Of a stretch of 64,000 bases of DNA, positions 47,796-50,168 are shown in pieces. The DNA is from Chryseobacterium angstadtii. Lineage in GTDB: Bacteria; Bacteroidota; Bacteroidia; Flavobacteriales; Weeksellaceae. The position numbers and the translations under genes are program-made. Under the pieces are notes generated by a model that was not told where the DNA came from, ran no database searches, and worked only from the letters and a program-made list of their open reading frames with translations. The stretch spans positions 1 through 64,000 of the forward strand of contig NZ_LFND01000008.1 of assembly GCF_001045465.1 (NCBI RefSeq), given 5' to 3'. Within the stretch, counting starts at the first letter, position 1, and each line of letters begins with the position of its first letter.

Positions 47796-48971
47796 TTATT
47801 TCAGAATCTTTAGAGTTCCTTTCAGGTGAGTGAACGATCCGTTAGGTTCTGCAATATTGGTATAAATGATATTTTTGTTATAATCCTGAACATGGGTAAC
47901 ATTGGAACCCAGCTTAGGTTCATGCCAGTACACCATAAAAATATTCTTTGCGATTTCCACCGCTGTATACTGCACTGTGTCTGTATTTCCTTTTACATTT
48001 CCGGAAATTCCGGTGAAAGACATCTCTTTATTGTCTTTGAAATTCAGAAGGAATTTAAATGTTCCGAAATCAACTTCCACTTTATTTCCGATAGCCAGAT
48101 AAGATGATTTCAGATCCCAGTTCATTTCTCCAAAGAAAACTTTAGCTCCCATTTCCAGTTCATTTTTTCCGGGAAGATCAGGATATTTTTTCACCATAAA
48201 ATCTACTACAGCGGAAGATGTTTTATTGTCGGTAACCGCTTTTTTATAGTTTTCCAGATAGTTTTTAACGAAATCAAGAGACTGAGGCGATAACGTCTGC
48301 CTTGCAAAATGCGAAGGAACTACCTGCTCCGGATGTAAAGCTTTCATTGCATCAATCTGCCCGATCCATTGATCAATTGCTTTTACATTCTGTGTATCTG
48401 CCATCCAGATATGAGAATCCACGGAAACGGAAATACCGCCTGCCACAGTTTTCAGAGAAGGGATCCATACAAAACTGTGAGCAGGATCTTCAGCATTCTG
48501 CTTAATTTCAATTTTGTTACCTTCAAGATCAGGAATTACGGATACCGCTTCCGGAATAATAATCTCTGAAGGCGCATCTTCTTTCAGCTGAGGCTTCCAT
48601 ACCGCCATTTTATCGTCTTTGGAGGCCGAAATAAGATAAGCTGTCTGCGCCGTTGAAATAATTTTTGCCTGAGGAAATGCTTTTCTGATCACATCCAGCC
48701 CGAAATAAAAATCAGGATCGCTGTGGGAAATAAAAACGGTTTTCAGATTTTTTCCTGTTGCTTTGATCTCTTTTACCAGCTGTTCTGCATATTGTTTCTG
48801 GAACTACGCATCAATAAGAATCGCGTCTTTATCTCCATAAATAATGGTAGAAGTAATGGGAAAAATAGCTTTTGGACCCGGGTTGTAGACTTTAATTTTT
48901 AAGTTTCCTGCGAACAGGATACTCACCAACCCAAGCAACATCATCAGGGATAATAATTTCTTTTTTAACAT
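47796..48971 (-). pseudogene. MBL-fold metallo-hydrolase interrupted by one amber codon
   Basis: A continuous frame of 391 codons from the ATG at 48971 is broken once, by TAG at 48804-48806. Before it come a signal peptide (LLSLMMLLGLVSILFAG) and STIIYGDKDAILIDA. After it FQKQYAEQLVKEIKATGK runs on in the same frame to the metal motif SHSDPDFYFGLDVI. Everything downstream to residue 391 (including ISVSVDSHIW and VVPSHFA) is intact. The codon is probably a CAG (Gln) to TAG change. An internal Met (48692) could give a 298-aa product, but without signal peptide or metal motif. It is third in an operon behind an NAD(P)-binding gene. Confidence 0.85.
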
Positions 48972-48989: not shown

Positions 48990-49643
48990 TTAGTAAGCGG
49001 CTGTAAAGCGTTCGCGGATATGGTTATTCTGTTCCAGTTCGTCTACCAGTACAGCGGCTACATCTTCTACAGAAAGGCGGCTTCTTCCGTTTTCGTCAAA
49101 AACAGGAGTTTCCAGGGAAGTTCTGTATTTCCCGGTTCTTTCTCCTACATTGGCCTGATTCATTTCGATGGCAGGGCTGAAGAAAGTCCAGTCAAGGGTT
49201 TTGTTTTCTTTAATTTTGTTTAAATAATCTCTTGCTGCCGTTGCTCCCGGCTTATACGCTTCAGGGAAATCCGGAGTATCCACAATCTGTACGTTGTCCG
49301 GAGTATAAAGACTTCCAGCCCCTCCTACTACGATCAGTCTTTTCACCCCTGACTGTTCTACTGCTTTTTCAATATTAATGGAACCGTTCAGGAAATCATT
49401 ATAAAGATTAGGATTCGTCCATCCCGCATTGAAGGCACTGATTACGGCATCACTTCCTTTCAGAGCCGCTGCCAGCTCGTCTGTATTGTTTACATCAACG
49501 CTTTTTGCCGTGATATTTTCTTTTGATTCCACTTTAGAAGCATCTCTTACCAAAGCTTCTACCGCATAACCTCTTTGTGCCAATTCGTTTACTACCTGTG
49601 TTCCTACAAAACCGGTTGCACCGATTACTGATACTTTTTTCAT
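48990..49643 (-). CDS. NAD(P)H-binding SDR-like protein
   Basis: A 217-aa atypical SDR with the Rossmann loop VSVIGATGFVGTQVVNELAQRG at the N terminus. SDAVISAFNAGW and LIVVGGAGSLYTPD follow, and the end reads RLSVEDVAAVLVDELE. The TGxxGxxG pattern and lack of a YxxxK motif place it with NmrA/YwnB-like proteins. It may sense the NAD(P)H state or reduce quinones. The Rrf2 gene lies just upstream, and a TGTAA-N9-TTACA palindrome sits in its promoter region. The same pairing (Rrf2 regulator plus NAD(P)-binding protein) is known from Bacillus ywnA/ywnB. Confidence 0.88.
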   Translation of the reverse strand: MKKVSVIGATGFVGTQVVNELAQRGYAVEALVRDASKVESKENITAKSVDVNNTDELAAALKGSDAVISAFNAGWTNPNLYNDFLNGSINIEKAVEQSGVKRLIVVGGAGSLYTPDNVQIVDTPDFPEAYKPGATAARDYLNKIKENKTLDWTFFSPAIEMNQANVGERTGKYRTSLETPVFDENGRSRLSVEDVAAVLVDELEQNNHIRERFTAAY

Positions 49644-49666: not shown

Positions 49667-49685
49667 TGTAATAAATTTTGTTACA
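49667..49685. promoter_or_regulatory. Putative Rrf2 operator, site 1
   Basis: TGTAATAAATTTTGTTACA is a TGTAA-N9-TTACA palindrome, 24 bp upstream of the NAD(P)-binding gene and in the rrf2-NAD(P) gap. The same arms and spacing recur at site 2. Confidence 0.65.
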
Positions 49686-49703
49686 CTTATAGATAAAAAA
49701 ATT

Positions 49704-50114
49704 TTATCCAAACTGATCGCTGAATTCCTGTAATGATTTAACACCTAAAAACTGAATTACCAGCTGATCTGTTTCTTCAAATAATGTATTTAAATGAACA
49801 TTCACCTCTTTTCCAACGCTACATGCCGGATTGGGATTCAAATTTTTCTTCCCTAAAACATCGGTATTCTTAACGGATCTGTAAATTTCCGAAATACTGA
49901 TCTGATCTGCATTTTTTGAAAGCTGTGTTCCACCCTCTTTTCCCTGTCTGCTTACAATAAGACCAGCTTCTCTCAATACGCTTAATTCTTTCCGGACAAT
50001 TACAGGATTTACATTGATGCTACCCGCAATCCATTCAGAAGTGAGCCACTCCTGAGGACTTTTCGCCAATAAGGTCATAATATGTATTGCCGTAGCAAAT
50101 CTTGTATTGTTCAT
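49704..50114 (-). CDS. Rrf2-family transcriptional regulator
   Basis: A 136-aa winged-helix repressor. FATAIHIMTLLAKSPQEWLTSEWIAGSINVN (split around residues 6-36) and PVIVRKELSVLREAGLIVSRQGKEGG form the HTH and wing. The dimerisation helix follows at the end. A single Cys lies in NPACSVGKEV at about residue 97; the three-Cys Fe-S cluster of IscR is absent. It therefore resembles thiol- or disulfide-sensing Rrf2 members of the YwnA type. It most likely represses itself and the two genes downstream through the palindromes at 49667 and 50150. Confidence 0.9.
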   Translation of the reverse strand: MNNTRFATAIHIMTLLAKSPQEWLTSEWIAGSINVNPVIVRKELSVLREAGLIVSRQGKEGGTQLSKNADQISISEIYRSVKNTDVLGKKNLNPNPACSVGKEVNVHLNTLFEETDQLVIQFLGVKSLQEFSDQFG

Positions 50115-50127
50115 TATAATTACACTG

Positions 50128-50157
50128 CAAAGATAAATTAATTTTTTAATGTAACAA
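50128..50157 (-). promoter_or_regulatory. Promoter of rrf2
   Basis: On the minus strand TTG (plus 50155-50157), 19 nt, then TATCTTTG (plus 50128-50135) is a perfect -33/-7 pair. The -33 box lies inside the operator palindrome of site 2. Confidence 0.7.
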
Positions 50158-50168
50158 TTTTTATTACA
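50150..50168. promoter_or_regulatory. Putative Rrf2 operator, site 2
   Basis: TGTAACAATTTTTATTACA, the same TGTAA-N9-TTACA as site 1. It covers the -33 box of the rrf2 promoter, so binding would block sigma-factor contact. This is the arrangement expected of autorepression. Confidence 0.65.

Follow-up and report, generated by a model that had tools for sequence, protein, structure and literature searches.

The window analyzed here is a 64,000-nucleotide stretch of DNA from Chryseobacterium angstadtii. On its minus strand, a gene encoding an Rrf2-family regulator is followed by a ywnB-like gene and by the frame of an MBL-fold hydrolase, and two palindromes, O1 and O2, precede the first two of these genes (Table 1). 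As the initial annotation reported, both palindromes are exact 19-bp instances of TGTAA-N9-TTACA. They are the only exact matches to this core in the window; allowing up to one mismatch yields 7 matches, against 3.17 expected from shuffling. The likeness of O1 and O2 exceeds the five-base arms: the reverse complement of O1 differs from O2 at two central bases. The window also contains a short AT-rich inverted repeat, GATAAAA/TTTTATC (49692-49708), which lies across the rrf2 stop codon directly before O2, in an A/T stretch that is partly kept in relatives.

Table 1. Features of the rrf2-ywnB locus, in window coordinates.
Feature	Position	Strand	Description
Putative operator O1	50150..50168	-	TGTAATAAAAATTGTTACA on the - strand (TGTAACAATTTTTATTACA on the forward strand); upstream of rrf2; its TTG is also the -33 element
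-7 box of the rrf2 promoter	50128..50135	-	TATCTTTG; 19 bases past the TTG at 50155-50157
rrf2	49704..50114	-	136-aa Rrf2 regulator; single cysteine, Cys98, in PNPAC
Putative operator O2	49667..49685	-	TGTAACAAAATTTATTACA on the - strand (TGTAATAAATTTTGTTACA on the forward strand); past rrf2 and ahead of the ywnB-like gene
ywnB-like gene	48990..49643	-	NAD(P)H-binding protein, 217 aa; Pfam NAD_binding_10, 3.1e-33
Vmh-like MBL-fold hydrolase frame	47796..48971	-	191 bits vs. model cut-off of 430

The palindrome core is not in itself informative. It was initially argued that two such sites would have a low probability of arising, yet the 5,202,773-base genome contains 25 copies of TGTAA-N9-TTACA, against 16 of the reversed control motif. 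In a genome this rich in A and T, these counts mean that rarity of the core proves nothing, and we rejected it as evidence; position and conservation carry the argument. The palindrome is not frequent in unrelated intergenic DNA, a result that agrees with the initial annotation. Only three of the 25 core sites lie outside open reading frames (ORFs): O1, O2 and one upstream of a gene for a DsbA-like protein elsewhere in the genome. The other 22 all fall within ORFs of at least 80 codons, as judged with a mechanical ORF caller and from their surroundings; nine of these were viewed by translation, and one ORF (92 codons, L204) is doubtful as a gene. An extended pattern, TGTAAYAAANTTTRTTACA, matched with at most one mismatch, recovers just the three intergenic sites. 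Looser matching returns noise (39 sites with up to three mismatches versus 53 for the control). Of the 39, 36 depart from the pattern at two or three positions, and the surroundings of 17 of these were read; two are exact core sites in ORFs, and the other 15 comprise 11 in ORFs and four that are intergenic.

Conservation was assessed in the best 80 of 122 related loci, nearly all from genomes named Chryseobacterium, or 81 loci with the window included. O1 is exact in 78 of the 80 relatives and carries one mismatch in the remaining two, while O2 is exact in all 80, counts to be read with the understanding that the loci come from related species and are not independent. The reversed control motif is exact at neither place in any of the 81 loci. 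Columns in the operator arms reach 1.9-2.0 bits and much of the flanking sequence falls below 1 bit; some A/T columns adjoining both operators are likewise conserved. In a distant sample of 11 Bacteroidia loci (rrf2 identity of about 40-53%), an exact site stands just upstream of rrf2 in nine and just past the rrf2 stop codon in eight, and 10 have at least one. The ywnB-like neighbor is present in 80/80 relatives and in 10 of the 11 distant loci. That AT-rich DNA simply yields TGTAA-N9-TTACA often, and yielded it here by chance, agrees with the genome-wide counts, but the placement of the sites and the conservation of their arms over 80 related loci make this account of O1 and O2 vanishingly improbable.

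In Bacteroidetes promoters, TTG serves as the -33 element and TAnnTTTG as the -7 element. The rrf2 promoter reads TTG-N19-TATCTTTG with its TTG supplied by O1, so the palindrome indeed covers the -33 box of a -33/-7 promoter, as had been proposed; 35 bases lie between O1 and the rrf2 ATG. An operator-borne TTG-N18-20-TAnnTTTG precedes rrf2 in 76 of the 81 loci, the window among them (77 if the TTG may lie outside the operator). The description of both palindromes as lying in promoter gaps stands for O1 and fails for O2, which is intercistronic: TTG-N17-21-TAnnTTTG is absent around O2 in 81/81 loci, and no -33/-7 promoter can be recognized there. O2 begins 17-20 bases past the rrf2 stop codon in every one of the 81 loci, and its asymmetric bases are mostly reversed in orientation relative to those of O1. 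Helical phasing between the two sites was considered and set aside. Start-to-start distances are 478-485 bases (481-483 in 68/81 loci), and they are uninformative for looping because rrf2, whose length is fixed, largely determines them. At the distant loci the upstream operator is placed differently. In six of 11 (L168-L173), TAnnTTTG begins 11 bases before the operator, which thus sits immediately past the -7 box; L176 and L177 have box and operator overlapping; and no TAnnTTTG box was seen at the operator in the other three, for one of which (L175) an incorrect ATG had been taken as the start. What is kept across loci is the operator, not its position in the promoter.

The third intergenic site was missed in the initial annotation. 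It lies on another contig (C5:325545), where its plus-strand sequence is identical to that of the site at 49667, and begins 80 bases before the DsbA-like gene (Pfam DSBA, 1.8e-38). The promoter of this gene again uses the TTG of the operator as its -33 element, with TAATTTTG as the -7 element. The DsbA-like protein has a match in 56 of 59 genomes of a genus sample, and the best 30 loci, including that of C. angstadtii itself, were read. An exact site is found within 350 bases of the gene in 25 of the 30 and within 200 bases in 22 (control, 0/30), a rate that the choice of only the closest loci may overstate; five of the 30 have no exact site within 350 bases. Among the 25 with a site, 20 have the whole promoter pattern and all 25 have the -7 box. 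In one genome whose DsbA-like gene lacks the site (G027), an exact intergenic site (L231, 1192-1210) precedes a small gene. Its product looks secreted by eye, and the gene is a possible further regulon member. Genes for an alpha/beta hydrolase and an MFS transporter lie directly before the third operator (L005, 430-2540).

The regulator matches the Pfam Rrf2 family (PF02082) with an E-value of 5.5e-28 and 98.2 bits against a cut-off of 30, and it belongs to this family. Its best match among solved structures is Bacillus subtilis YwnA (1xd7, 4.3e-23), and NPNPAC of the window protein aligns with NPNPKC of YwnA, sensing cysteine included. The iron-sulfur Rrf2 regulators IscR, NsrR and RirA can be rejected as counterparts: they require several cysteine ligands where this protein has one cysteine, and the corresponding NCBIfam models score far below their cut-offs. 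The genome holds three other Rrf2 genes, and no exact core site occurs within 20 kb of any of them.

These features recall SifR of Streptococcus pneumoniae, a quinone-sensing Rrf2 repressor that has one conserved cysteine and controls ywnB (PMC9218516). The SifR operator, TGTAA-N9-TTACA, was found by way of the HypR motif and is bound tightly at catE and ywnB; quinones release the protein from DNA through C102 (PMC9218516). Proteins of the SifR group are marked by a single conserved cysteine, located where helix alpha-5 has its N-cap and within HxxPNPxC, and the group is placed there in Firmicutes and a few Actinobacteria (PMC9218516). The same paper notes a ywnAB operon in B. subtilis and calls the function of YwnA unknown (PMC9218516). 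Excerpts of two further papers, PMC6798810 and PMC4344238, have no bearing on this site. The Chryseobacterium system shares with SifR the Rrf2 family, the PNPxC cysteine, the TGTAA-N9-TTACA motif and an operator at the gene of a YwnB-type NAD(P)H enzyme; with B. subtilis YwnA/YwnB (1XD7) it shares gene order, in addition to the structural match noted above. It differs from SifR in its host, a member of the Bacteroidota, in having the regulator gene adjoin ywnB, in having an operator before the regulator gene as well, and in its DsbA-like third target; the term dsbA is absent from the main text of the SifR paper (PMC9218516). The protein has PNPxC, but the His of HxxPNPxC is Asn in all 81 loci. 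As for the SifR targets catE, yhdA and fre, no intergenic core site is left over for them in this genome, a comparison made at the level of operator sites. The published SifR/HypR motif and the SifR system did not figure in the initial annotation, which did suggest that the single cysteine could be the sensor. Cys98 is present in 80/80 relatives, 11 of which have one or two additional, non-conserved cysteines elsewhere, and its alignment with the quinone-sensing position of SifR and YwnA makes it the likely sensor.

The identity of the signal deserves separate consideration. Staphylococcus aureus HypR, which carries two sensing cysteines, C33 and C99, binds the same TGTAA-N9-TTACA core (PMC9218516). 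The protein described here could bind the same operators and respond to oxidants (hypochlorite, disulfide stress) in the manner of HypR rather than to quinones. The shared core, the fact that the window protein receives a score in the NCBIfam HypR model, and a third target that encodes a DsbA-like thiol oxidoreductase all fit such a response, and a Cys98-Cys98 disulfide within the dimer, or one with a small thiol, is conceivable. The HypR switch, however, uses both C33 and C99 and the protein here has a single cysteine; moreover, its HypR score, 57.4 bits, is far under the cut-off of 180. We therefore regard oxidant sensing as unlikely, and quinones or similar electrophiles as the better candidates.

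Regulator and motif can also be followed together across genomes. Within a genus sample, the regulator finds a match at E 0.001 in 98 of 98 genomes; in one of these (G033) it is only a weak paralogue match, and in another (G062) the copy has internal stops. Among 295 Bacteroidia genomes, a stricter pattern is present in 12 of the 14 that have a close ortholog (E-value of at most 3.5e-29) and also in 68 of the 281 without one, a contrast that is real but leaky; the motif alone thus does not predict the regulator. In one of the 12 (G368), the sole stricter-pattern site is within an ORF. Nine extra sites in other genomes were read, and five are intergenic and four in ORFs. G033 has no stricter-pattern site anywhere in its genome, and its DsbA-like gene has the core arms upstream with a center that is off-consensus. 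This retention of the arms where no Rrf2 ortholog was found would suit a scheme in which the palindromes serve another regulator and merely flank rrf2, and our assignment of Rrf2 as the binding protein is drawn by analogy. Against such a scheme, both sites stand beside rrf2 with at most one mismatch in all 80 relatives, at least one exact site does so in 10 of the 11 distant loci, and a related Rrf2 protein, SifR, binds the motif; we consider it very improbable. Position and conservation instead favor the initial proposal that the sites are operators of the adjacent Rrf2 protein and that the protein probably regulates its own gene.

The ywnB-like protein matches 25 distinct solved sequences, of which 3dhn is the best and 4r01 the third (1.2e-33). 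4R01 is pneumococcal YwnB, a quinone reductase (PMC9218516), and the Chryseobacterium protein is probably a quinone/flavin reductase as well. An operator stands before this 4r01-matching gene, and from its presence we read control of a YwnB-type enzyme. The MBL-fold frame begins 18 bases behind ywnB. The initial annotation included it in the response, a proposal that fares poorly: codon 56 of the frame is an in-frame stop, and a homologue was not found behind ywnB in 24 of the 80 relatives' loci (21 of 77 counting only loci long enough, as the sequences of L123, L129 and L134 stop no more than about 200 bases from ywnB, too soon to reveal the gene). The homologue is present in the other 56, with no stop in any matched stretch. 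The MBL gene is a passenger here and not a demonstrated member of the circuit, though it may belong to the operon in other relatives; the stop reflects either a recent pseudogene or an assembly error.

Taken together, our data make it highly probable that this Chryseobacterium carries a one-cysteine Rrf2 repressor circuit of the SifR/YwnA type. The sites, their conservation, the gene order, the promoter overlap and the alignment position of the cysteine are observed directly, and from SifR we infer DNA binding by Rrf2, its dimeric state, repression, quinone sensing and the activity of the enzyme. An Rrf2 homodimer would bind TGTAAYAAANTTTRTTACA. At O1 it would cover the -33 element of the rrf2 promoter and repress its own gene by steric block; at O2 it would hinder transcription into the ywnB-like gene; and at the third site it would cover the -33 element of the DsbA-like oxidoreductase gene. 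Cys98, located close to where the dimerization helix begins, would then react with a quinone or similar electrophile, and the modified protein would leave the DNA, allowing the quinone/flavin reductase and the thiol-disulfide oxidoreductase to be made.

The least certain part of this explanation is the mode of action of O2. Either a ywnB promoter of a kind we do not recognize overlaps O2, or O2 halts transcription reading through from the promoter of rrf2. It is a bolder possibility, if a doubtful one, that O2 acts as a repressor roadblock, or as one end of a loop with O1 about 480 bp away, and in this way uncouples the reductase gene from the regulator gene. The constant place of O2 in the 81 loci, and its similar place in eight of the 11 distant ones, is consistent with such a role, while O1 covers the -33 element in Chryseobacterium and follows directly on the -7 box in six of the 11.

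We found no published account of this system for Chryseobacterium, Bacteroidetes or Flavobacterium in open-licence PMC full text. In kind the system is known: it is a Bacteroidota case of the circuit already published for SifR. Its significance is that it would carry a quinone-sensing circuit, operator included, into the Bacteroidota. The regulon would comprise three sites, one of them at a DsbA-like gene and another a conserved operator between two cistrons.
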